From NCBI GenBank assembly GCA_028278675.1, contig JAQAJJ010000008.1:1-64000 (forward strand): DNA of 64,000 bases, given 5' to 3'. Below the pieces are notes generated by a model. The model made no database searches and was not told the origin of the DNA. It saw nothing but the letters and a program-made list of their open reading frames with translations. This document shows positions 1,973 through 62,174 of this stretch, in pieces. Numbering within the stretch: position 1 is the first letter of the stretch; every line of letters begins with the position of its first letter. Both the position numbers and the translations under genes were made by a program. Source of the DNA: Candidatus Azophilus lithoversatilis (GTDB lineage Bacteria > Pseudomonadota > Gammaproteobacteria > Pseudomonadales > Azotimanducaceae).

Positions 1973-2008
1973 AGGTATCGGCGCGAAGCCTGTAAAGGTA
2001 TTCTTACC

Positions 2009-2096
2009 AGGCGATGCCGGAGACCAAGGAGAACGTGCGCGGCGCGCAAGTTGACTCACATGGCAACTCCTCCCGCGACCACGAGAACTAGACACC
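2009..2096 (+). repeat. R1 dispersed repeat, copy A (between yceD and yceF)
   Basis: It begins with an imperfect version of the GAGGCGATGCCTC hairpin head, then GAGACCAAGGAG, and carries the core GCGCAAGTTGACTC followed by GGCAACTCCTCCCGCGACC and a closing AACTAG. It aligns with copies at 4399, 14222, 20609, 35704 (reverse), 49648 and 62041 (reverse). It lies in the divergent yceD/yceF gap and ends 23 bp before the yceF ATG, pointing towards it. Confidence 0.75.
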
Positions 2097-3920: not shown

Positions 3921-4398
3921 GCGCGGCGACAAAAGACGGGCGATGAACGCAATGCGGCCCCGGACGCGGTGGACCAGGGCGCGGCAAGGACGAAGTTGAA
4001 TTCACTGACATCCACCAAATATCTGACTTGACCATTGAGCCAACGATAGACCCAACTAACTGACGATCAACGGATCAACAAACGCAAACACTGAATTGAA
4101 ACCAGCGCCTTGCGGTCAATGCAAGACCTGGAACGGAAAAACTCGGGTCGCGGCGCCAATTCGCCGCGGTCCCAAACGCGCGAAACGCAACGCCAGCCAG
4201 CAACGAGCAAAGCCGTTGGGCTTAGGGATGCCAACCAGCACTATTTGTTCCGACACGCCGCCGCCCCTGAGATGGGGTGCCGACAGTCCGCTGACCACTC
4301 CTCCTGCGCTCGCCTTCTGCTGAATCTCGGCCACTGAGGCCGAGGCTCCGTCAAAACGCCTCCGTTCCCGCCTAGCCGCTTCCGGCGCCTCAAGCCCA

Positions 4399-4492
4399 AC
4401 GAGGCGATGCCTCGGACCAACAACAAGATGGTCGCCAAGCGCAAAGGTTAACTCAAGTGGCAACCTTGTTCCCGCGATCAAGACAACTAGGA
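4399..4492 (+). repeat. R1 dispersed repeat, copy B (rne leader)
   Basis: It starts with the perfect hairpin head GAGGCGATGCCTC (4401-4413), continues GGACCAACAAC, and carries the core AAGCGCAAAGGTTAACTC with GGCAACCTTG, CCGCGATCAAG and ACAACTAG. It ends 7 bp before the rne ATG, so the rne ribosome-binding region (GGAAG) immediately follows the element and the repeat is part of the rne mRNA leader. Confidence 0.8.
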
Positions 4493-9740: not shown

Positions 9741-10488
9741 CGCCCAGCACCAGCCGGCGCACCCGCTCCAGATCAGCGGGCGTATCGACGCCGCCCGGCG
9801 AGGGGCGGCAGGCGTCGAGCACCCGGATGGACAAGCCGTGCTCCAGCGCCCGCAGCTGTTCCAACCGCTCAACGTCCTCCAAGGGGCTGGGCGGCAAGGA
9901 CACGAATCGGCGCAGCGCCCAAGTCCGATAGCCGTAGATGCCGATATGCCGCCGCCAGAGCCCGGAAGTCACGACCGGATAGCCGTCCCGGGCCCGGGGA
10001 ATGGGCGAGCGCGAGAAGTAAAGCGCAGCGCCCACTGCGTCGCGCACCACCTTGACCACATTGGGGTCGAGGAGATCATCATGGCTGGCGATGGGTTCGC
10101 ACAGCGTCGCCATTCCGGTATTGCCAGCCTCAGAAACTGCCGTCGCCAGTTGCGAGATGACGTCCGGCGCAATCAGGGGTTCGTCGCCCTGCAGATTGAT
10201 GACCACGGCGTCCTCCCCCCAATCCGCCCGTTGGCGGGCGACCTCCCAAACCCGATCGGTGCCCGAACCGTGGTTGGGATCGGTCATCACCGCATCGTGG
10301 CCAGCGGCAGCCACCGCCTCGACAACGCGCCTGTCATCAGTGGCGACGATCACCTCATCCGCACCGGCGAAGCGGGCCTGCTCCGCAACCCGCACGACCA
10401 TCGCCCGACCGGCAATCCGCAGCAGGGGCTTGCCCGGCAGCCGGGTGGAGCCGTAGCGGGCGGGGATAACCACCTTGAAGGCACTCAC
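9721..10488 (-). CDS. kdsB: 3-deoxy-manno-octulosonate cytidylyltransferase KdsB
   Basis: Activates KDO with CTP for lipopolysaccharide core assembly. The 255-residue protein starts VVIPARYGSTRLPGKPL and has ATDD, NLQGDEPL, PNVVKVV, ALYFSRSPIP and the IGIYGYR motif, all standard for KdsB. It overlaps the end of the msbA-lpxK ORF by 4 bp, indicating one operon (exbB-exbD-msbA/lpxK-kdsB). Its 3' end overlaps an SDR gene on the other strand by 20 bp. Confidence 0.95.
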   Translation of the reverse strand: MSAFKVVIPARYGSTRLPGKPLLRIAGRAMVVRVAEQARFAGADEVIVATDDRRVVEAVAAAGHDAVMTDPNHGSGTDRVWEVARQRADWGEDAVVINLQGDEPLIAPDVISQLATAVSEAGNTGMATLCEPIASHDDLLDPNVVKVVRDAVGAALYFSRSPIPRARDGYPVVTSGLWRRHIGIYGYRTWALRRFVSLPPSPLEDVERLEQLRALEHGLSIRVLDACRPSPGGVDTPADLERVRRLVLGAISPPS

Positions 10489-13313
10489 TTCAGGATGCCC
10501 TTCCGCGCCAAGATGGCGTCCAAGCGCTCCTCGCCGGAAGCGTCGATTTCAGCGGCGACCTGCAAACGCCAGCAATGCCCCAAGGGCACGGTCAGGCGGC
10601 TCAGCTTAACCGCATCCTTGTCGGTGCAAACCACCGGGGCACCGTCTTCATAGGCGATTTCCGAGCCGGAAAAGCGATGGTGGTCCGCGAACGCATGCAA
10701 CACGGCGCGCAGGCCCAACTCATCCAACAGGCGCGCGAAGCGGTCCGGGTTGCCGATGCCGGCCACCGCATGCACCCGTTCATGGCCAGCCGCAAAATCG
10801 ATCGGCGACAGGGTCTCTCCGGTGCCGAGATTGACGAAAGCGACCGGCCGCATCCGCATCAGGCTTGCCTGCGGCGCCGCGCCGCATGGGCGACCATTGC
10901 TCACCACCCAATCAACCTGCTTAAGCCGCTCGGCCGGTTCCCGCAGAGGTCCGGCCGGCAACAACCGGCCATTGCCCAAACCCCGGTGACCATCGACCAC
11001 GGCAATCTCCACATCCCGGGCCAAGGCATAGTGCTGCAGGCCGTCGTCGGCCACGACCACATCCACCTCGCCGGCCCTGAGCAGCGCTTGAACAGCCTTG
11101 ACCCGGTTCCGGCAAACTGCGACCGGGCAGCCGGTCCGGGCGGCAATCAACACCGGCTCGTCCCCGCAGCGCAGAGGATCAGCCCCTTGGCACGGCACCG
11201 CCAGCGGTCGGCGATTGCCCCTGCCGCCATGGCCTCGGGAGACCACCCCGGGGCGCAGGCCGCGCTGCTGCAGCCAGTGGACCAGCCAAATCACCAACGG
11301 CGTCTTACCCGTTCCCCCGACGGTGATGTTGCCCACCACAATCACTGGCACCGGCGCCCGCCAGGAGCCTGACCGGCCGGTCAAGGCAATGCCGCGGCGG
11401 CGCTCGGACACTCGCCGCCACAGCCAGGCGAATGGCACCAGCAGACCAGTCCACCAAGCGCCTTCGTACCAACCTTTCGTCAAAACCAAGGCGCCGCCGC
11501 CATCACCGCCCCGGCTTGTGGCTTGGAGCAACGCAACGGGTGCGGAAGGGCCGTCGCAACCGTTGTCGGCGCGGGCATCGTAGAGCTGCGCATACACCCC
11601 CCCCAAGGCCAGCAGGCTATTGTGGTCGCCCTGCTCAACGATGCGCCCATCATCCATGACGTAGATCAAGTCGGCGTTCTCCACGGTGGAAAGCCGGTGG
11701 GCAATGATGAGGGTCGTGCGTCCACGCATGGCCTCCTCCAGAGCGGCGTGGATGTGGCGCTCCGATTCGCTGTCGAGCGCTGACGTGGCCTCGTCAAGAA
11801 TCAGGATGGGCGCATTCTTCAGCAGTGCCCGGGCGATGGCGATTCGCTGCCGCTGGCCACCGGACAGCAACACGCCGTCGTCACCGACCAGGGTGTTCAT
11901 GCCCTTGGGCAAGGCGGTGATGAAGTCCTGGGCGTGGGCGCGGCGCACCGCGTCCTCCAGCGCCGCAGGGTCGGCGCCAGCCAAGGCGCCGTATGCGATG
12001 TTGGCGGCCACAGTGTCGTTGAACAGATTCACCTGCTGGGTAACCAACGCCATCTGCCGGCGCAGGCTGGCTTGGTCGTAGTCCTGGACGGCGCGGCCAT
12101 CAAGGCGCACTTCGCCGCTGTCCGCCTCGTAGAAGCGCGGGATCAGACTCGCAAGGGTCGATTTGCCGCTGCCCGAACGGCCCACCAAGGCCACCGTCTG
12201 GCCCGGCTCGACAATCAGGTCGATGTCTCTCAGAGCTGGCCCTTGGTCATCGCTGTAGGAGAAGTTGACGCCCCGAAACTCGATCCGCCCTTCGGCCCGG
12301 TCGATGGACAGCGTACCCTGATCCCGCTCCACCGGGGCGTCGAGCTGGGAAAAGACGTCCTCTGCGGCGGCCAAGCCCTTCTGCAGGCGGGCATTGACCT
12401 CGGTGAGCTTGCGAATGGGCCGCGCCAGCATTCCGGCCAAACCCAGAAAGACCACTAGGTCCCCGGTGGACAGCCCATGTGTCACGTCAGGCCGCGCCAG
12501 CGTCGCGATCAACAGCGCCACAGCGGCGACCACTAGGATTTGCACGATTTGGGTGCTGGCCGCTTTGGTGACGACCATTTTGAGATTGCGGCGGCGGTTG
12601 GCGCGACTGGCCCGGTCGAAGCGCCGCCGCTCGTTGTCTGCGCCGCCGAAGATGCGCACCACCCGGTAGCTCGCGATGGCTTCCGAGGCGACGTGGGTGA
12701 CATCCCCCATGGCGTTCTGAATGCGTCTGGCGATGCTGCGGAAACGGCGGCTGGCATAGAGCACGACGACGGCGACCACCGGCACCGCGGCAATGAAGAT
12801 CAGTGTCAACGCCCAGTTGAGGTAGAGCATGCAGCCTAGAAAGACGGCCACCTTGCCGCCGTCCTGGATGATCGACTTCAGCGCATCGGTGCCGGTATCG
12901 CGCAATTGCGCCACGTTGAAGGTGATCCGCGACACCAAGCGTCCTTGGCTGCTGCCATCGAAGTAGCGGCTCGGCATGTGCAGCAGTTGCTCGAAGAGCG
13001 CCATGCGCAAGTTGTGGACCACGGTGAAGGAGACTTGGGAGAGCAGCATCTCGCCGACCACCTCGCCCAAGCCGCGCACCGCCGCGGCGCCCAGCATGGC
13101 CAGTGGAATGAAGAAGGCGGCGCGGGCGGCACCCGCATCCCAATCATCGACCAAGGCGCCGAAGAGGTTGACGAAGTAGGCCTCGGCGCCGCTGCCCACC
13201 AAGAAGCCCAGTACCGCCACGGTGAAAAGCGCCCAATAGGGGCGCACATAGCCGAGCAGGCGCTTGTAGGTGGTCCAGTCCGTCGGTCCCCGGTCCGCCA
13301 CACCGGCACTCAT
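10485..13313 (-). CDS. msbA-lpxK: Lipid A exporter MsbA fused to tetraacyldisaccharide 4'-kinase LpxK
   Basis: One 942-codon frame covers two lipid A enzymes. Residues 1 to about 580 are MsbA: six-helix ABC exporter domain, then Walker A GRSGSGKST (about 378), signature LSGGQRQR (about 481), Walker B ILILDEATSALD (about 500) and IIAHRLST. After a linker of about 30 residues, LpxK starts near KGWYEGAWW (about 609): WRAPVPVIVVGNITVGGTGKTP with its P-loop, SRGHGGR, DDGLQH, and family-length C-terminus. No stop occurs between the parts and there is no in-frame ATG or GTG at the LpxK start, only TTG codons. It overlaps exbD and kdsB by 4 bp each. If real, flipping and 4'-phosphorylation of the lipid A precursor sit on one polypeptide. 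Confidence 0.88.
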   Translation of the reverse strand: MSAGVADRGPTDWTTYKRLLGYVRPYWALFTVAVLGFLVGSGAEAYFVNLFGALVDDWDAGAARAAFFIPLAMLGAAAVRGLGEVVGEMLLSQVSFTVVHNLRMALFEQLLHMPSRYFDGSSQGRLVSRITFNVAQLRDTGTDALKSIIQDGGKVAVFLGCMLYLNWALTLIFIAAVPVVAVVVLYASRRFRSIARRIQNAMGDVTHVASEAIASYRVVRIFGGADNERRRFDRASRANRRRNLKMVVTKAASTQIVQILVVAAVALLIATLARPDVTHGLSTGDLVVFLGLAGMLARPIRKLTEVNARLQKGLAAAEDVFSQLDAPVERDQGTLSIDRAEGRIEFRGVNFSYSDDQGPALRDIDLIVEPGQTVALVGRSGSGKSTLASLIPRFYEADSGEVRLDGRAVQDYDQASLRRQMALVTQQVNLFNDTVAANIAYGALAGADPAALEDAVRRAHAQDFITALPKGMNTLVGDDGVLLSGGQRQRIAIARALLKNAPILILDEATSALDSESERHIHAALEEAMRGRTTLIIAHRLSTVENADLIYVMDDGRIVEQGDHNSLLALGGVYAQLYDARADNGCDGPSAPVALLQATSRGGDGGGALVLTKGWYEGAWWTGLLVPFAWLWRRVSERRRGIALTGRSGSWRAPVPVIVVGNITVGGTGKTPLVIWLVHWLQQRGLRPGVVSRGHGGRGNRRPLAVPCQGADPLRCGDEPVLIAARTGCPVAVCRNRVKAVQALLRAGEVDVVVADDGLQHYALARDVEIAVVDGHRGLGNGRLLPAGPLREPAERLKQVDWVVSNGRPCGAAPQASLMRMRPVAFVNLGTGETLSPIDFAAGHERVHAVAGIGNPDRFARLLDELGLRAVLHAFADHHRFSGSEIAYEDGAPVVCTDKDAVKLSRLTVPLGHCWRLQVAAEIDASGEERLDAILARKGILK

Positions 13314-13774
13314 GGGCCATCCTGACCGGTTGCGGGCGGCAGCGCCCCGGGCGTCTGCGCCGGCACCTCGGCGTCCGGGGCCGAGCGCGTGAGAATGCTG
13401 ATCCGCGTCAGGCCGGATTGGCTGGCCGCATCCATGGCGCCGACCACTGCCTGGTGAGGGGCAAGCGCATCCGCGGCGATGACGGCGCGGGGCGCCGCGT
13501 CTTCACCGCGGGCTGAAGCCAGAGCCCGCACCAGCGCGGATCCAGCAGCAGCGGGACGACCATTGACCGCGTAGCCGCCGTCGCGATGCACGGTGATGGT
13601 CACGGGATCCGCTGTCGCCAGCCAGCCCGCCCGCGCTTCGGGCAGGTCGATCTGCAGCTCGCTGCGGCGGATGAAGGTGGTGGAAACCATGAAGAAGATG
13701 AGCAGCAGAAACACGATGTCGATCAGCGGCGCCAGCTCGACGGTCGCCGCCATGCGCCCTCGGCGACGGTTCAT
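13310..13774 (-). CDS. exbD: Biopolymer transport protein ExbD/TolR
   Basis: Inner-membrane partner of ExbB that couples the proton gradient to TonB-type outer-membrane transport. 154 residues: short basic N-terminus, one membrane helix LAPLIDIVFLLLIFFMVSTT with the essential aspartate, then a periplasmic domain (LQIDLPEA...). The tail after about 125 is Pro/Ala-rich. It overlaps exbB and msbA-lpxK by 4 bp each. Its position before msbA/lpxK matches the Pseudomonas comEC-exbB-exbD-lpxK order. Confidence 0.9.
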   Translation of the reverse strand: MNRRRGRMAATVELAPLIDIVFLLLIFFMVSTTFIRRSELQIDLPEARAGWLATADPVTITVHRDGGYAVNGRPAAAGSALVRALASARGEDAAPRAVIAADALAPHQAVVGAMDAASQSGLTRISILTRSAPDAEVPAQTPGALPPATGQDGP

Positions 13775-14499
13775 GATTCGCCCAACTGCCCTGACGCAGA
13801 CAGCGGGACGTCGTTGTGCGCGGCCTCCACCAGATGCGCCGCTTGCCGCTCCAGCTCCACCACCAAGTCCTCGACCCGGCGCAGAAAGAAGCGGTGCAGC
13901 ATGAGCGAAGGTATGGCCACGGTCAGGCCGGCCGCAGTGGTGATGAGCGCTTCGGAAATGCCGCCGGCCAAAGTCTCGGGACGCCCGGCGCCATCGAGCA
14001 TCAGGGCGGAAAACACTTGGATCATGCCGACCACCGTGCCGAGCAGCCCCAGCAACGGGGCTATCGAAGCGATGATGCCCAATGACGTCAGATAGCGCTC
14101 AAGATCATGGCTGACCGCAGCGATGACTTCGGCCATGGCTTCCTTCATCAGGCTGCGGCCGCGCCGTGCATTGGCGATTCCCGCCGCCAGCACTTGGCCC
14201 AGAGGGCTGACCAGGCTAGGTCTCGAATCGACGGATGGGCGGCCGCCGGGCACAAAAGTGGATTCACTTGGAGATCTTTTTCCGCGATCGAGAACGCTGC
14301 TGGCCGGCAATTCACCGGGCCCAGCCGTCTCAGCCAAACCCTCCCCCGTCCATCGCCGGACGTCGATGAGCAAGTCTTCGGGAATCACTCGGGATCTTTG
14401 CAGGGTCCAGCCCCGCTCGATGCCGATCGCCAGGGCGGCGATGCTGCACAGCACAATGGGCACCATGAGCCAGCCGCCGGATTGCATGACGCCCAACAT
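13771..14499 (-). CDS. exbB: MotA/TolQ/ExbB proton channel protein carrying a repeat-derived insert
   Basis: Proton-channel subunit for TonB-dependent transport. 242 residues: first membrane helix near 10-28, later helices LGIIASIAPLLGLLGTVVGM and ALITTAAGLTVAIPSLMLH, the conserved ExbB signatures. Between the first helix and the PLGQVLAAGI helix, residues about 65-92 are encoded by an R1 repeat copy on the opposite strand, producing a Ser/Arg/Pro-rich insert that normal ExbB proteins do not have. The frame stays open, so the gene may still work. First gene of the exbB-exbD-msbA/lpxK-kdsB operon. Confidence 0.88.
   Translation of the reverse strand: MLGVMQSGGWLMVPIVLCSIAALAIGIERGWTLQRSRVIPEDLLIDVRRWTGEGLAETAGPGELPASSVLDRGKRSPSESTFVPGGRPSVDSRPSLVSPLGQVLAAGIANARRGRSLMKEAMAEVIAAVSHDLERYLTSLGIIASIAPLLGLLGTVVGMIQVFSALMLDGAGRPETLAGGISEALITTAAGLTVAIPSLMLHRFFLRRVEDLVVELERQAAHLVEAAHNDVPLSASGQLGES
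14222..14305 (+). repeat. R1 dispersed repeat, copy D, inside exbB
   Basis: It shares CGACGGATGGGCGG-CGCCGGGCACAAAAG with the flank and core of other R1 copies (compare CGAGTGGCCGGTCGCCGGGC at copy E), followed by GATTCACTTGG and CCGCGATCGAGAAC. It lies antisense within the exbB frame without breaking it. This is the only copy inside a conserved protein-coding gene. Confidence 0.7.
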
Positions 14500-14538: not shown

Positions 14539-14789
14539 CTTCCATGGAACAAATGGAGACGGCCCACCGGCTGGCGGGTTGTTCCTTCGATGTCAGCGGC
14601 GTGCCGCTCTGGGGCAAGCTAAGGGCTTCCATGGAACAAATGGAGATTCCTTCGGCGTCGGCGGCGTGCCGTTCTGGGGCAAGCTAAGGGCTTCCATGGA
14701 ACAAATGGAGACAGCCCACCAGCTGGCGGGTTGTTCCCTCGACGTCAGCGGCGCACCGCACTGGGGCGAGTTGAAGGCCCCTAGGGGCA
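14539..14789 (+). repeat. R2 repeat, tandem array of three units
   Basis: Three head-to-tail units start at 14539, 14626 and 14691, each with CTTCCATGGAACAAATGGAG. The first and third are about 88 bp and share GGCTGGCGGGTTGTTCC (CAGCTGG in the third), a GTCAGCGGCG block and CTGGGGC. The second lacks about 22 bp in the middle. The array fills the gap between galU and exbB and reaches the galU stop. It contains in-frame ATGs, but I see no convincing coding gene in it. Confidence 0.85.
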
Positions 14790-14791
14790 GA

Positions 14792-15616
14792 TCAGTCCCG
14801 CTCATGAAGGGCGTGGCAATGGTTGGTGGCTTCCACAAAGCCTTCAATGGAGCCGCAATCAAAGCGCCTGCCATCGAATTTGTAGCCGATGACGGCGCCC
14901 TGCTGCGCTTGGGTGAGCAGGGCATCGGTGATCTGCACCTCGTCGTTGCGACCCGCTTCCGTGGCCTCAAGAATGTCAAAGATGTCCGGCGTCAGGATGT
15001 AGCGGCCAATGATGGCCAGATTGCTCGGCGCGTTGCCCGACGACGGTTTTTCGACCATGTCGGTCACGCGGAAGATGCGCTCGGTAATGGCTTCGCCGGC
15101 GATCACGCCGTATTTGCCGATGTCCTCCTCGGCCACTTCATCGATGGCGACGATGCTGCATCGGAACTGCTTGAACACAGCGACCATCTGCGCCAGCACT
15201 CCATGCCCCTCACCTAGGCAAAGGTCGTCGGCAAGAACCACCCCGAAGGGCTCATCACCAATCAGGGTCCGCCCGCTTCGAATCGCATGACCCAAGCCGC
15301 GCATGGTGACCTGCCGGCTGTAGGAGAAGGTGCAGCGCTCGATGAGTTCGCGGATGCCGGAAAGCAGCACCTCCTTGCCGGTGCCCTGAATCTGGTGCTC
15401 CAGCTCATAGTTTAGGTCAAAGTGGTCTTCGATCGCCCGCTTGCCGCGACCGGTCACGAAGCCGATGTCGGTTAGGCCCGCCTCCAGCGCCTCCTCCACC
15501 CCATACTGCACCAAGGGCTTGTTGAGGATGGGCAGCATTTCCTTGGGCATCGACTTGGTGGCAGGCAGAAAGCGGGTGCCGTAGCCCGCCACCGGAAACA
15601 GGCACTTCTTGATCAT
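14792..15616 (-). CDS. galU: UTP--glucose-1-phosphate uridylyltransferase GalU
   Basis: Makes UDP-glucose from UTP and glucose-1-phosphate for envelope and exopolysaccharide sugars. 274 residues with LFPVAGYGTRFLPATKSMPKE (nucleotide loop and catalytic Arg/Lys), KPLVQYGVEEA, GRGKRAIEDHFD, VVLADDLC and the EKPSS motif. It lies downstream of clpB on the same strand. In related genomes galU is not normally found between comEC and exbB, so its place here reflects rearrangement. Confidence 0.95.
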   Translation of the reverse strand: MIKKCLFPVAGYGTRFLPATKSMPKEMLPILNKPLVQYGVEEALEAGLTDIGFVTGRGKRAIEDHFDLNYELEHQIQGTGKEVLLSGIRELIERCTFSYSRQVTMRGLGHAIRSGRTLIGDEPFGVVLADDLCLGEGHGVLAQMVAVFKQFRCSIVAIDEVAEEDIGKYGVIAGEAITERIFRVTDMVEKPSSGNAPSNLAIIGRYILTPDIFDILEATEAGRNDEVQITDALLTQAQQGAVIGYKFDGRRFDCGSIEGFVEATNHCHALHERD

Positions 15617-15691
15617 GATCCGATCTCACTCTTCACAAGGGCCAACTCATTCTTTGCGATGGAGCGGATGTTAGACGATCAAGGAAGGACG

Positions 15692-15733
15692 CGCATCGCC
15701 TAAGGCGATGCGTTCGAGTTGCTGCGCAACTCG
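15692..15733. repeat. Two adjacent hairpins between clpB and galU
   Basis: CGCATCGCC at 15692-15700 pairs with GGCGATGCG at 15704-15712, and CGAGTTGC at 15715-15722 pairs with GCAACTCG at 15726-15733. Both stems are perfect with three-base loops. Either could end the clpB transcript, but no T-run follows on that strand, so factor-independent termination is doubtful. The first stem resembles the GAGGCGATGCCTC head of R1. Confidence 0.5.
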
Positions 15734-15747
15734 GCGCCGGCGACACC

Positions 15748-18342
<2,595 letters not shown>

Positions 18343-18439
18343 GATTGCTGCTCCTTGTACGGGTTGCATTCATCCTTGACCGGAGGCTCGCGCAAGCCTC
18401 CTGCCAACAAACCCTACAATGCGTCCAGACTGGCGCATT

Positions 18440-20602
18440 TCAATGGTTGTCCAAAGCGTTCTCAGGCGCTCGATTCACCCACCAAGCCCAACCGGCGTTG
18501 CGTTCCCGGCGATGGGCAACCACTCGTGCCGGCGTCGCCGAGGACCACTGCAGGGCCCCTTCGATGCCGGTCATCCACACTGGGGAACCCAATAGCCGGT
18601 AGCGCCGCACCACCTGTGGATTGGGGTGGCCGTAGGCGTTGCGCCAGCCGGCGCTGATGAAGACCAAGCGCGGATTGACGGCCTCGACAAAGCGCTTGGA
18701 CGAGGAGCTGCCACTGCCGTGATGAGGCGCAAACAGCAGGGTGGCGGGGGCCAGTCCACCGGCCACTAAAGTCGCCTCCACCCGGCGCGAGATGTCGCCC
18801 GTCAACAGAGCGCGCTGCTCCCCAACGCTGACCTGAAGAACGCAGGAGGCATCGTTGCCGCCTCGCGCGTAGCCTGCAGGTGGATGCAGCACCTCAAAGG
18901 CCACCCCGTCCCAAGTCCAGCGCTCGCCCCGTCGGCACGGCTCGGCATTCAGGTCGGCCACATCGCCCCAGACGGAGGCTGCGGGCGCTCCGCGCAGCAC
19001 GGCGGCGGCACCCCCGGCATGATCAAGATCGCCGTGGCTGACGATCAGACGGTCCAAGCTCCGTTTTCCCGTGGCGGCGATTGCCGGCAGCACTACCGCT
19101 TCTCCCAAGTCAAAGCCAGAGGGGAAACGGGGCCCCGCATCGAAAAGCAGGCGGTGGTTGCGCGTGTCGATCAGCGTCGCGCTGCCCTGCCCCACGTCCA
19201 GCGCCAGAATTTCAAATTGCCCCGGCGCGGGCCGGTCTTGAAAAACCATCAGCCCGGCGGCCCACAGCGGCAGGCAGGCAAGCCGCAGGCGCCAATTCGG
19301 GGCCGCCAAGGCGCAGGCGAGCGCCGCCAACGCGGCAAGACCCTGCCCAAGCGGTACCGGAACCGAGTGGGATTGGCCCTCCCCAAGCGTCTCAAGGCCG
19401 CTCAGCAAGGCCGACACTGACAGATCCGCCAGCATCCAGCAGAACGCGTCGAATGGCGCTCCCGCCAAGGTGGAGACCAGCGAGAACATCACCAAGGGCA
19501 CCGCCACCAGCGATATCCAAGGCACCGCAATCAAGTTGGCGAGGCCAGCCGCGGGCGCGACTTCGCCCACCACCGCTGCGGTCATCACGGTCATCGCCAA
19601 AACCATGAGCGCCTGCGCCCACATCAGGCCGGCTGCCCAGCCGAGCGCTGGCACGCGGTTGGCGAATCCGGCAACAAGCACGGCAACGGCGCCGAAGGAG
19701 AGCCAAAAACCCTGGGTGAGCACGGCACCTGGATCCACGCAGACCACCATCACCGCGGCAAGCGCCAGCCAACTCGCCACCGGTACCCGGCGGCCGCCGG
19801 CGAAGGCCAAGGCGGCAAATCCGCTCATCACTCCGGCCCGAAACGCCGGCGGCTCCGCCCCGCAGAGCCAAACAAAACCGATCATCCCAGTCACGGAGAA
19901 CGCCGCGGCGATCCAACCGGCCGGCAGCCAGACCAGTCCACCCGGCGCCAAGCGCGCGGCAGCAGCACCGACGGCATAGCCCAGCAAGGCCACCAATCCG
20001 ACGTGCAGCCCGGAAACGACCAGCAGATGCACCGTGCCCGTGCGCCGCAGCAGCGCCCAGTCGGCATCGGTCAAGGCGCTGCCATCGCCGGTCGCCAAAG
20101 CCCGCAGATGGGCACCGCGGCGACGGTCGGCCAGCCGTTCGGCAACCGCTTCGCGAACGCGCTGGCGCAGATCGAATGCGGACGGCAGCAGGCGCTCGCC
20201 GGAGCGGATGTAGCCCACGCCATCGATGCCTTCGCCGAACAGCCAGCGCTCATAGTCGAAACCGCCAGGATTCTGGTAGCCCCAAGGCGCCCGTACCTTG
20301 GCTTCCACCCGCCAGACCTCCCCGGCCTGGACCGGCGGCGGGAAATACCAATTCAGGCGCAGTTGGCGACCGCTCAGGTCCACGCACTCAGGTTTGAGGT
20401 CGCGGCGCACCGCCACTTGAAGGCGCAGTCGATCTTGCGCCGGAGAGGACGCCGCTTCCAATATCGCCACGGTCAGTTTGCGCGGTGCCTCCGCAGCGCA
20501 ATGGGGCACCCGGGCGGACAGGCCCGAACGCGCCATCCCCAGCAGGGACGACGCGGCGAGGCCGACCAGCAGCAACCACATCAGGCATCGGATAGCAGGC
20601 AT
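18440..20602 (-). CDS. comEC: ComEC/Rec2 DNA uptake channel
   Basis: Inner-membrane channel for single-stranded DNA during natural transformation. 720 residues: N-terminal membrane helices and soluble DUF4131-like part, the competence domain with GDGSALTDADWALLRRTGT and HLLVVSGLHVGLVA, about ten membrane helices, then a C-terminal metallo-beta-lactamase-like domain with LIDTRNHRLLFDAGP and VSHGDLDHAGGA (about 518). Full length suggests competence potential. It is divergent from a DUF2062 gene, as in other Gammaproteobacteria; an R1 copy fills the gap. Confidence 0.93.
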   Translation of the reverse strand: MPAIRCLMWLLLVGLAASSLLGMARSGLSARVPHCAAEAPRKLTVAILEAASSPAQDRLRLQVAVRRDLKPECVDLSGRQLRLNWYFPPPVQAGEVWRVEAKVRAPWGYQNPGGFDYERWLFGEGIDGVGYIRSGERLLPSAFDLRQRVREAVAERLADRRRGAHLRALATGDGSALTDADWALLRRTGTVHLLVVSGLHVGLVALLGYAVGAAAARLAPGGLVWLPAGWIAAAFSVTGMIGFVWLCGAEPPAFRAGVMSGFAALAFAGGRRVPVASWLALAAVMVVCVDPGAVLTQGFWLSFGAVAVLVAGFANRVPALGWAAGLMWAQALMVLAMTVMTAAVVGEVAPAAGLANLIAVPWISLVAVPLVMFSLVSTLAGAPFDAFCWMLADLSVSALLSGLETLGEGQSHSVPVPLGQGLAALAALACALAAPNWRLRLACLPLWAAGLMVFQDRPAPGQFEILALDVGQGSATLIDTRNHRLLFDAGPRFPSGFDLGEAVVLPAIAATGKRSLDRLIVSHGDLDHAGGAAAVLRGAPAASVWGDVADLNAEPCRRGERWTWDGVAFEVLHPPAGYARGGNDASCVLQVSVGEQRALLTGDISRRVEATLVAGGLAPATLLFAPHHGSGSSSSKRFVEAVNPRLVFISAGWRNAYGHPNPQVVRRYRLLGSPVWMTGIEGALQWSSATPARVVAHRRERNAGWAWWVNRAPENALDNH

Positions 20603-20608
20603 AATCTA

Positions 20609-20720
20609 ACGAGGCGATGCCTCAAGCCGACGAGTGGGTGCGCCACCCCAGGGGCGGCGCAGGTGCTGGGCACAAAAGCTGACTCATGTGACAACCTAAT
20701 CCCGAGATCAAGACACCCAG
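20609..20720 (+). repeat. R1 dispersed repeat, copy C (between comEC and DUF2062 gene)
   Basis: It starts with the perfect hairpin head GAGGCGATGCCTC (20611-20623), continues CAAGCCGACGAGTGG, and has the core GGCACAAAAGCTGACTCATG followed by GACAACCTAATCCCGAGATC. It spans nearly the whole divergent gap, starting 6 bp before the comEC start codon on the other strand and ending 2 bp before the ATG at 20723. The promoter signals of both genes, if local, must lie within or across this repeat. Confidence 0.8.
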
Positions 20721-23137: not shown

Positions 23138-24416
23138 GCACCCGGCTGGGCAGCAGGCGCGCGGCGCGCCAAGCCGGATAAAGGGTGCAGGCCGCGCACA
23201 AGACGAAGGACACCACCGCGATGCGGACGAGGTCCGCTGGCCAGATGTCCACCGGCAGGTAGCTAATGAAGTACTGGCTCATCAAGTCGAGGTTCAAGCC
23301 GTCATTGATCCAAGCAAAGACGGCGGGCAGTCCCGCCGCCGCCGCAGCACCGCAGGCAATGCCGAGAAGGATGCCCAAGGCGCCAACCACGGCGCCCAGC
23401 ACCACGAAACAGCCGATCAGCGGCGCACTGGCAGCGCCCATGGTCTTGAGTATCGCGATGTCCGCCCCACGCTGCTCCACCGTCATGACCAGGGTGGAAA
23501 CCAAGTTGAATGCAGCCACGCCCACGAGAAAGGCGAGCAGTACGAATAGGGTCGCCTTCTGCGCGCCGATCGCCCGATGCAGGTTGCCGTGGGAGTGCTG
23601 CCAAGTGCGGGCAAAGAAGCGGTCCTCGCCCAAGCGCCGCACCGCTAGGGCGGCGAGCGCGTGGGCGGCGTCGAGATCGGCTAGGCGCAGTTGATAGCCA
23701 TGCACCTTGCCGCCCAATCGAAACAGCCGTTGGGCGTCCGCCAAGTGGATGAAAGCCGCCCGGGCATCCAGTTCGGAGCCGGAGCGCAGCAAAGCCACCA
23801 CTCGGAAGCGCTTCTGCCGGGGCAGCATTCCCGCCAGCGTCAGGGAACCCAAGGGCAGCATCAACCGCACCGGATCGCCGATACCGACGCCCAAGCGCGA
23901 AGCCAAGCGCGAGCCGAGGATCACGCCGAAACCGCTGGGTCGCATGGCGTCAAGCGCCGTTGGTCCATCCTCGCCAAGAAACGCCTCGATGCCGGACACT
24001 TGCCGATAGTCCTCCGGCTCAACGCCGGTCAACAGCACACCTTGCACTTCGTCGCTGGCAACCGCCAGGCCCGACCCCTGAACGATTGGCGCGGCACCCA
24101 ACACGCCGGGCGTGGCGACTAGATTCGACGTCTCCAAGGCACTCGGAACGAACGGCTGATCGCCCCAGAGCCCCGCATGGGGCAGGACGCCAAAGACGCG
24201 CTCGCGCAACTCCCGCTCGAAGCCGTTGATCACCGACAGCACCACCACCAGCACGGCGACGCTGAGCGCCAAACCGGCCACCGCCACCCAGCCGATCAAC
24301 GCACCGGAACCACGGCGCGCAAAGGCATAGCGCAGACCGAGCTCGACAGCGAGCCTGGCATTTGCTTTCCACAAGACCGGGCGCGGGGGTACTCCACCCT
24401 TGGATGGCGGCTCCAT
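23124..24416 (-). CDS. lolC: Lipoprotein-releasing ABC transporter permease (LolC-like), start uncertain
   Basis: First gene of lolC-lolD-lolE; same architecture as its partner with ELGLRYAFARR, helix WVAVAGLALSVAVLVVVLSV, NGFERELRERVFGVLPH and three C-terminal helices. The start is unclear: the conserved part begins at about 24374 (a TTG, LWKANARLAVELGLRY), while the nearest upstream ATG, 24416, lies inside an R2 repeat copy and adds 14 residues. No ribosome-binding site is clear at either. The repeat may have replaced the original start region. Confidence 0.85.
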   Translation of the reverse strand: MEPPSKGGVPPRPVLWKANARLAVELGLRYAFARRGSGALIGWVAVAGLALSVAVLVVVLSVINGFERELRERVFGVLPHAGLWGDQPFVPSALETSNLVATPGVLGAAPIVQGSGLAVASDEVQGVLLTGVEPEDYRQVSGIEAFLGEDGPTALDAMRPSGFGVILGSRLASRLGVGIGDPVRLMLPLGSLTLAGMLPRQKRFRVVALLRSGSELDARAAFIHLADAQRLFRLGGKVHGYQLRLADLDAAHALAALAVRRLGEDRFFARTWQHSHGNLHRAIGAQKATLFVLLAFLVGVAAFNLVSTLVMTVEQRGADIAILKTMGAASAPLIGCFVVLGAVVGALGILLGIACGAAAAAGLPAVFAWINDGLNLDLMSQYFISYLPVDIWPADLVRIAVVSFVLCAACTLYPAWRAARLLPSRVLAHE

Positions 24417-24501
24417 GGAACAAATGGAGACAGCCCAGCGGCTGGCGGGTTGTTCCTTCGGCGTCGGCGGCGTGCGGTTCTGGGGCAAGCTAAGGGCTTC
24501 C
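24408..24501 (+). repeat. R2 dispersed repeat, single copy at the lolC 5' end
   Basis: It carries CTCCATGGAACAAATGGAGA, AGCCCAGCGGCTGGCGGG, a GTCGGCGGCGTGCGG block and CTGGGGCAAGCTAAGGG, over 85% identical by eye to the units at 14539-14780. It overlaps the 5' end of the lolC frame on the opposite strand and is followed directly by a pair of GAGGGCG palindromes. Confidence 0.8.
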
Positions 24502-24510
24502 ACGAATCAG

Positions 24511-35641: not shown

Positions 35642-35703
35642 CGAGCAGGAATTCGTTTCGCCGCATTTGGATGATTTCCTCCCTAGTGGTCCATTGATAG
35701 GAC

Positions 35704-35781
35704 ACTAGTTTCCTTGATCGCGGGTCAAGGTTGCCACATGAGTCAACTTTTGCGCCCGGCGACCGGCCACTCGTTGGTCTG
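35704..35781 (-). repeat. R1 dispersed repeat, copy E
   Basis: Reverse-strand copy with GACCAACGAGTGG, then CGCCGGGCGCAAAAGTTGAC, TCATGTGGCAACCTTGACCC, the GATCAAGG arm and a closing ACTAGTGTCC. CCTTGA and TCAAGG form a small hairpin. This is one of the best-preserved copies. It lies 63 bp beyond the end of the exported VOC gene. Confidence 0.8.
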
Positions 35782-36129
35782 ATCTTCCTTCCCATCCGTC
35801 CTTGGACTCCCCCGAAGGACGGCGTCTCGGCATCAGGACCAAGGAGCGCTTGGACACGGATCTTGGTTTGACCGAATTGCCGGATGCCCACTGCACTCTA
35901 GGTCGGGCGATGGTGCGCACCTTGGGCGGATGCCGCCCCACTGGGTCAAGTCACACGCGGCAATCACGGTGGGAGCACTCCCTCCACCGTCAGGTCGCCA
36001 CCGCCTGAACCGCCCCCTCCCCAAAGCGCCAACCTGGATTCCGTCGTTCCTCACCATGCCATAGGGAACCCCGAAGCAATCACTAACAACGGCAACGCAT
36101 CCGCAACGCGAACAACGACGACCGCACCG

Positions 36130-48863: not shown

Positions 48864-49646
48864 ATGGAAGACTTTGGGCAGCTTTTCACGCCGATGGAAC
48901 TCGGCTCCCTGCGCGCGGACAGCCCGATCCCGCTGTATCACCAACTCCATCAATTCCTCAGACAGCGCATCCTGAGCGGCGAACTGGGTTTCGGCGCCAA
49001 ACTCCCCGGTGAAGCGCAACTCGCCGAAGGCTTTGGCGTCTCCCGAGTAACCGCCAAACGTGCCATGGATCTACTGGTGGCCAATGAACTCATCCAGCGC
49101 AAGCGCGGCCGCGGCAGCCATGTGGTGTTCCAAGCTCCGGCGTCCGACGTCGAAGCGCCGCTGGTCGGCATGCTGGAAAAGCTGGCGCAGATGTCTCGCA
49201 GCACCCAGGTGCGCGTGCTGCACATCGACCGGCGTTCGGCGCCCACGAAGCTGATCGAGGACCTAGAGATCCCAGCGGACGAACCTGTGCACTACGTGGT
49301 GCGGGTGCGCTTCCGGGAGGACCAAACGCCCTTCGCCTACTACGAGAGCTGGACTCGCGGGATCGAGCACGGCTACGACGCGCAGGCCATCGAACATCGG
49401 CTGCGGTTCGACATCATGGCCGAGAACGGCCACCAGATCGCCCGCATCGAGCAGCACTTGAGCGCCGCCGCGGCGGCGGCGCCGGTCGCGGAACAACTGC
49501 GCCTATTGCCCGGCGACCCTGTTCTGACGCTGGTGCGCTACTCCTTCGACACCCAGGGAGATCTTGTGGACCTGTTGCACTGCCAATACCACACCGGCCA
49601 CTTCCACTACCGCATGAACCTCAGCATGGAGGACTATACGCGCTAA
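48864..49646 (+). CDS. GntR-family regulator (HutC subfamily)
   Basis: 260 residues: N-terminal winged helix PLYHQLHQFLRQRILSGELGFGAKLPGE, SRVTAKRAMDLLVANELIQR, KRGRGSHV, then a UTRA ligand-binding domain (HYVVRVRFREDQTPFAYYESW...). GGAGG lies 6 bp before the ATG at 48864. It is the only local regulator within the 37-64 kb island and so the first candidate to bind the five palindromes, although none lies at its own promoter and HutC-type sites usually look different. The ligand is probably an island intermediate. Confidence 0.9.
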   Translation: MEDFGQLFTPMELGSLRADSPIPLYHQLHQFLRQRILSGELGFGAKLPGEAQLAEGFGVSRVTAKRAMDLLVANELIQRKRGRGSHVVFQAPASDVEAPLVGMLEKLAQMSRSTQVRVLHIDRRSAPTKLIEDLEIPADEPVHYVVRVRFREDQTPFAYYESWTRGIEHGYDAQAIEHRLRFDIMAENGHQIARIEQHLSAAAAAAPVAEQLRLLPGDPVLTLVRYSFDTQGDLVDLLHCQYHTGHFHYRMNLSMEDYTR

Positions 49647-49647
49647 C

Positions 49648-49722
49648 GAGGCAATGCCTCAGACTGACGCACGGCGCTGAGCGCAAGAGTTGACTCAGGA
49701 GACGAGCTCCGCCGACGATTAG
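49648..49722 (+). repeat. R1 dispersed repeat, copy F
   Basis: It starts directly after the GntR stop with the hairpin GAGGCAATGCCTC (49648-49660), then AGACTGACGCACGG and the core GAGCGCAAGAGTTGACTC. The 3' part is diverged. It fills the gap between the convergent GntR and nitrilase-like genes and may serve both transcript ends. Confidence 0.65.
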
Positions 49723-62040: not shown

Positions 62041-62101
62041 GCTTCCTAGGCCTCCTGATCGCAGGACAAGGTTGTCATAAGGGTCAACTTTTGCGCCGAA
62101 C
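62041..62101 (-). repeat. R1 dispersed repeat, copy G (5' leader of the methyltransferase gene)
   Basis: Reverse-strand copy: CGGCGCAAAAGTTGACCC, TTATGACAACCTTGTCCTGC, GATCAGGAGGCCTAGG. It abuts the methyltransferase ATG. The 3' end of the element (GATCAGGAGG here, GATCAAGACA in other copies) has changed into a good ribosome-binding sequence 10 bp before the start. Confidence 0.75.
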
Positions 62102-62174
62102 AACCGCCGAATCGCGCAGCAACTCCATCGCGCCGCCCCAAGGCAGTGCGCTGACGCTTGCCGACCTCCACAAA

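Follow-up and report, generated by a model that had tools for sequence, protein, structure and literature searches.

The exbB gene of Candidatus Azophilus lithoversatilis carries a copy of a dispersed repeat of roughly 90 bp, here called R1. The repeat forms a large family in this genome, its site in exbB is empty in close relatives, the gain amounts to exactly 90 bases and leaves the frame open, and the core of ExbB is under purifying selection. It is very probable, taking the explanation as a whole, that R1 is a small non-autonomous mobile repeat, one copy of which jumped into exbB, where it is read in frame and tolerated.

Results

The insert in ExbB

The gene lies in a 64,000-nucleotide stretch of contig JAQAJJ010000008.1, which was analyzed as a whole (the window). 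Its product belongs to the ExbB/TolQ/MotA proton channel family, as judged from the MotA_ExbB domain (PF01618, E 2.2e-31) together with an adjoining exbD gene. The four nearest relatives compared are referred to as G002, G004, G007, and G008. The relevant features are as follows.

13310-13774, minus strand: exbD, next gene of the operon, its start overlapping the exbB stop (open reading frame; Pfam ExbD, PF02472, E 8e-27)
13771-14499, minus strand: exbB, 242 amino acids, in-frame insert at residues 68-97 (translation and orthologues)
14207-14300, plus strand: R1 copy in exbB, antisense to the gene, 94-column span of the R1 model (cmsearch and consensus identity)
14210-14299, plus strand: net insertion of 90 bp, probably an 87-bp core and one CTG (empty sites in G002, G004, G007, and G008)
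14207-14209, plus strand: left CTG, putative 3-bp target duplication (sequence; relatives have CTGC or CTGT once)
14297-14299, plus strand: right CTG, putative 3-bp target duplication (sequence)

The initial annotation had placed an R1 copy at 14222-14305. Its presence was confirmed independently by a model of the family built without it, which recovered 14208-14296 (plus strand, model positions 2-90 of 94, 48.7 bits, E 3.5e-14), whereas the coordinates had to be corrected to 14207-14300. Over this span the copy matches the R1 consensus at 65 of 94 positions and is thus diverged; among 59 indel-free copies outside genes the median identity is 84 per cent, and a single copy is lower. Even as a plain DNA query against its own genome it finds relatives (best non-self E 2.8e-6). 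In the predicted translation, the ExbB frame crosses the copy antisense to the element without a stop, as had been described. The insert is likewise in frame, but it comprises 30 codons (residues 68-97, net 90 bp) rather than about 28 residues.

When we aligned ExbB with the proteins of G002, G004, G007, and G008, these covered residues 1-67 and 98-242 with nothing between (the ends in G004 and G007 differ by some residues). The corresponding DNA alignments show a gap of exactly 90 bases, or 30 codons, in all four, and 7/7 other ExbB proteins in our alignment (A2) lack the insert. Repeat-free orthologues carrying the same residues were looked for in 58 genomes, 57 of which have an ExbB match, and none was seen; in every genome other than the own one, the best match begins no earlier than residue 88, and those of close relatives skip 68-97. 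The proposal that a dispersed element is now part of the ExbB reading frame therefore holds, with four nearest relatives free of the insert, both sides of the gene otherwise intact, and the core under purifying selection. The accompanying term "non-coding" was half right, in that the R1 consensus is open in two of six frames. At the joint, relatives read GGRCTGC or GGGCTGT, and the window reads GGGCTG, the element, and CTGCTGG. Judged from these letters, the gain probably consists of an 87-base core plus a duplicated CTG, another split being possible.

The dN/dS ratio of residues 98-242 is 0.11-0.15 between the own genome and the four relatives and 0.12-0.21 among those four, which shows purifying selection on the ExbB core. 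These values weigh against the alternative that exbB was disabled recently, or is misassembled, and is a pseudogene on its way out. The assembly is a 104-contig draft, in which such repeats can lead to errors. However, the frame is open over 242 codons, both flanks match the same gene in the four relatives with no other defect, and the exact 90 bases recur in five other genes, making this alternative highly improbable.

Known ExbB topology places the stretch of the insert in the cytoplasm, and the inserted residues are probably located there. A structure prediction, built on 8 sequences and given little weight at a mean pLDDT of 45.8, shows the insert as coil (pLDDT about 26-30) between helices 41-53 and 99-111. 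The same loop region, shortly after the insert place, contains small tandem expansions of LMDR units in the ExbB proteins of two more distant relatives (L071:3001-3636 and L072:3001-3630).

Several other features of the neighborhood were recorded. An MsbA-like ABC transporter and LpxK form one open reading frame of 942 amino acids (window 10485-13313, minus strand); likewise, a 950-codon frame in G007 (L067) stays open as far as the locus extends. Another repeat family, of ∼98 bases and starting TCCATGGAACAAATGGAGA, occurs at window 14541-14790, 24412-24509, and 1345-1442, with a cluster of three copies directly upstream of exbB and further ones elsewhere. In the region 14792-20602 of the window, a GalU-like nucleotidyltransferase, identified by an NTP_transferase Pfam match, and ClpB are located between exbB and a ComEC-like gene; the ClpB and ComEC-like names were assigned by reading only.

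The R1 family

A seed search with the window copy at 35690-35800 (minus strand) against the DNA of the own genome returned 41 matches. We aligned 20 near-full copies (A1), leaving out the exbB copy, and derived a sequence-only covariance model, which finds 153 matches at E <= 0.01 in the own genome (3,767,021 bases, 104 contigs). Seven copies are located in the window, namely the one in exbB and the following.

35705-35782, minus strand: R1 copy, E 5.2e-25
4397-4490, plus strand: R1 copy, E 1.1e-20
20606-20719, plus strand: R1 copy with ∼20 bases of extra hairpin sequence, E 8.8e-18
2005-2091, plus strand: R1 copy, E 6.9e-12
62048-62114, minus strand: partial R1 copy, E 2.7e-11
49643-49720, plus strand: partial R1 copy, E 3.6e-11

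The copy at 20606-20719 represents a longer form, also seen at loci L100, L017, and L025, that is extended near model position 35 by ∼20 bases or more, including a GC-rich hairpin (GCGCGCCGCCTTGGCGGCGC). Of 99 near-full copies outside genes, 13 have a net gain of 18-23 bases.

Using the same model with stricter filters, by which weak copies may be missed, we searched 58 genomes and detected R1 in eight. All of these are among the nine genomes of the own genus (G003 has none), compared with 0/49 from other genera. As far as searched, R1 would be restricted to one genus of uncultured gammaproteobacteria. The close relatives include the metagenome-assembled genomes Gammaproteobacteria bacterium isolate RHO2_bin_33 and Pseudomonadales bacterium isolate p16x65bins.14, and some of these close relatives presumably derive from sponge metagenomes. 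An exact 24-base core of R1 had 0 matches in viral contigs and none in plasmids, and a literature search returned no report of the family.

R1 shows little sign of a conserved structure. Seven foldings gave z values from -1.91 to +0.32 with no palindrome or stable hairpin beyond a 5-bp stem, and RNAalifold found 0 pairs with two-sided changes. At the gathering score, Rfam 15 reported only a tRNA in the window, and four R1 loci searched at E <= 1 gave one chance-like match. R1 as a structured RNA was rejected, since none of these analyses gave anything convincing. No terminal inverted repeats are visible, as the ends of the consensus (A1) are not inverted repeats of each other. An attC-like origin was dropped because the ends do not fit. 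A search for a transposase or parent element with Y1_Tnp (PF01797) gave 0 matches in the own genome (G000), although the control was positive in 5/14 genomes, and a RAYT/REP origin was accordingly rejected.

Copies inside other genes

The surroundings of most R1 copies were fetched, yielding 151 distinct copies. In a first pass, a codon-usage score trained on long open reading frames of the R1 loci (frame-call accuracy 0.73 on 150-base pieces) placed 13 copies in frames with coding-like flanks on both sides. A second, gene-calling pass over the 151 copies assigned 15 to the inside of a called gene, 71 to intergenic regions, and 1 to an edge, with a gene-end overlap of less than half in 50 and more than half in 14. 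Spanning copies were then read and scanned with Pfam. On the basis of sequence, nine copies in eight genes of the own genome were accepted as probably translated.

ExbB, window 14207-14300: antisense frame
Sulfotransferase (Sulfotransfer_3), L109: antisense frame
Cytochrome P450, L125: sense frame
Hydrolase like haloalkane dehalogenase, L131: sense frame, no empty site obtained
CsiV, L111: two copies, sense frame
TauD, L075: sense frame, intergenic in the second pass
DinG-like helicase, L004: sense frame, far end may be frameshifted
PurD, L117: sense frame, found only in the second pass

A search with PurD gave a single match in the own genome, so that a single-copy housekeeping gene bears an R1 insert. 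The inserted residues fall in the C-domain, at a point where the solved structure of glycinamide ribonucleotide synthetase, 1gso, continues almost without interruption. In the DinG-like gene (L004:402-2582), the character of the sequence changes after ILFSGTLSP; a frameshift is possible, and the gene may be decaying. A first reading by which CsiV copy 1 was shared with G002 and G008 was ruled out by protein alignment.

Other candidates were set aside. Those from the 13 copies of the first pass are located upstream of the Maf (window 2004-2091) and ThuA (L116) domains, at the PBP2-RodA junction (L155), in the C-terminal tail of a CBS protein (L180), or where no gene was identified (L086). Of the 15 from the second pass, the first four of these were again set aside, together with L114 and L166 (upstream of malate synthase and TolB domains) and L151. 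At L155:4623-7841 (own genome C70:13822-17040), PBP2 and RodA share one open frame of 1073 codons and are joined by ∼175 extra bases containing part of an R1 copy. The two are separate matches in all 8 other members of the genus. RodA keeps its own ATG, and a fusion protein is only a possibility.

In the relatives, we examined 26 R1 copies, a part of the matches from the 58-genome search. Four are located in spanning frames with coding-like flanks; two of these were accepted, and two (L185 and L205) were dropped. The accepted copies are borne by a Uma2 protein in G002 (L203) and a biotin carboxylase in G004 (L192). In the alignment of the latter with its best solved relative, 2dzd, the query advances from 225 to 258 over a stretch that takes 2dzd from residue 199 to 202.

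Most copies (136/151) do not lie inside a called gene, even though the caller marks 87 per cent of the loci as coding. This distribution would suit an R1 whose main role is regulation or termination between genes, its in-gene copies being accidents without wider meaning. The lack of a stable conserved fold described above argues against such a role, and the purging of harmful insertions would give the same intergenic bias. We consider this reading possible but doubtful.

Insert length, target site, and reading frames

All six genes compared with relatives at base level gain exactly 90 bases. The net insert is 90 in 4/4 relatives for ExbB, P450, TauD, and PurD, in 3/3 for the sulfotransferase, and in 4/4 genomes for CsiV copy 2. 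Protein searches agree, with gaps from 412 to 441 (P450), 438-439 to 469 (sulfotransferase), and 371-373 to 401-405 (PurD). Among seven sites aligned outside the accepted genes, there were one clean joint (L090) and six ragged ones, which gave no clean 90. At the intergenic copy L090, the empty site of the relatives reads CCTAG, CCTAA, or CCTGG.

The target reads YTN, mostly YTNG, in ExbB, P450, the sulfotransferase, TauD, PurD, and L090, and the trinucleotides at the two ends are CTG and CTG in ExbB and CTA and CTA in PurD, TauD, P450, and L090. Across the family, however, left and right trinucleotides are equal in 24/63 copies, hardly above the 19.1 expected by chance, so the argument for a duplication rests mainly on the empty sites. 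Because end equality is near chance and CsiV copy 2 lacks the motif, a 3-bp target duplication is weakly supported.

Of the six frames of the R1 consensus, only sense frame 0 and antisense frame 2 are free of stops. ExbB and the sulfotransferase use antisense frame 2, and the remaining seven accepted copies use sense frame 0; this agreement is no extra evidence, because any copy that is still translated should show it. With a gain of 90 bases, divisible by three, and one open frame in each orientation of the consensus, about one in three insertions into genes would be translatable. Copies outside genes are not unusually open, the antisense frame being open in 24/34, 26/41, and 19/23 near-full copies of three score bands. 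A net indel of zero was found for 9/9 in-gene copies versus 59/99 other near-full copies, a modest contrast (p about 0.03 for multiples of three) that is mild evidence for a maintained frame in the in-gene copies.

The insert might instead stay untranslated, either cut out of the RNA in the manner of an intron or passed over by the ribosome as a bypassing element. That it is short and occurs in conserved genes would fit, and nothing more. ExbB carries it antisense, whereas PurD carries it in the sense orientation, and removal is unneeded because its length is divisible by three and its frame is open. This notion is almost certainly wrong.

Selection on the inserted peptide

We asked how changes are distributed in and beside the insert. 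In the nine in-gene copies, 35/125 changed codons are synonymous; the sense frame of 52 non-genic copies gives 132/593 (p 0.20), and change shows no enrichment at third positions (p 0.85). Because both measures are unremarkable, the R1 peptide would seem to be tolerated and not selected. The ExbB copy by itself has 10/21 synonymous changed codons versus 169/618 in the 52 non-genic copies in the same frame, an excess seen in one of nine copies looked at and given no correction. ExbB residues 1-67 differ by 22-25 nonsynonymous changes between the own genome and G002, G007, and G008. Between relatives at similar dS the counts are 10 (G002-G007) and 8 (G007-G008), G002 and G008 being near identical. 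The resulting excess of ∼2.5 times could reflect either relaxed constraint or adjustment beside the insert.

Both the excess in residues 1-67 and the synonymous share of the ExbB copy are what would be expected if the inserted peptide had been co-opted, so that it serves ExbB, for example in assembly or partner binding, with neighboring residues adapted to it. The nine copies taken together, however, give no such signal, and the insert is common to no ExbB orthologue. We therefore regard co-option as quite improbable.

Discussion

A sequence of events can be proposed for R1 as a tolerated mobile repeat. R1 probably moved by transposition, and each clean insertion would add 90 bases, made up of an 87-bp core and a 3-bp duplication of a YTN(G)-like target. 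Most insertions into genes were presumably lost, and few copies, those that fell in a tolerant loop and kept an open frame, would have persisted. The insertion in exbB would have taken place after this lineage split from the four nearest relatives compared. Read antisense, this copy would encode 30 residues in the stretch that separates the first transmembrane helix from the conserved core. ExbB with the insert is probably still working, the peptide being presumably translated and tolerated.

A further-reaching idea is that R1 is selfish DNA shaped for survival in genes, with its multiple-of-three length and translatability in both orientations, and has in this way spread into core proteins (PurD, ExbB, and biotin carboxylase) of a genus far from the Rickettsiales, where peptide insertion would be a standing source of protein change. 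We think this rather unlikely.

Several known systems invite comparison. REP sequences are short dispersed repeats with a 5′ hairpin. R1 resembles them as a short dispersed repeat with a 5′ hairpin, yet its genome gave no match to Y1_Tnp. ERIC elements are enterobacterial and longer than R1. By description, R1 is similar to them in having intragenic copies with open frames, which a passage of a review mentions for ERIC elements (PMC10969869). A likeness also exists to the miniature elements of Coxiella burnetii, QMITE1 (300-400 bp) and QMITE2 (150-190 bp), for which an excerpted account gives occasional in-frame overlap with open reading frames (PMC5896051). R1 shares with them a probably non-autonomous nature, many copies, putative short direct repeats at the ends, and this occasional overlap, but it lacks terminal inverted repeats and is smaller than either.

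Of the known systems, R1 works most like the Rickettsia palindromic elements. According to a passage of the same review, these are short dispersed repeats of about 150 bp, some copies of which occur in frame in unrelated genes and are translated as a recognizable peptide, and the same process is deemed conceivable in other prokaryotes (PMC10969869). R1 is similarly dispersed in many copies (153 matches, 151 distinct) and, as far as its sequence tells, would place a common peptide in unrelated genes. In contrast to the Rickettsia elements, known here by description rather than by sequence, R1 is shorter (94-bp model), is found in both orientations and mostly outside genes, belongs to a gammaproteobacterial genus, and has no palindrome beyond a 5-bp stem. 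Because it failed the palindrome test, R1 is not classed with them.

Protein-embedded mobile repeats are best known from Rickettsia, and R1 would be a second, unrelated-looking case in a gammaproteobacterial genus. Here, each event can be assigned to one lineage and measured to the base, thanks to the empty sites of close relatives. R1 makes testable how single-copy enzymes tolerate such inserts and whether the inserts ever become useful.
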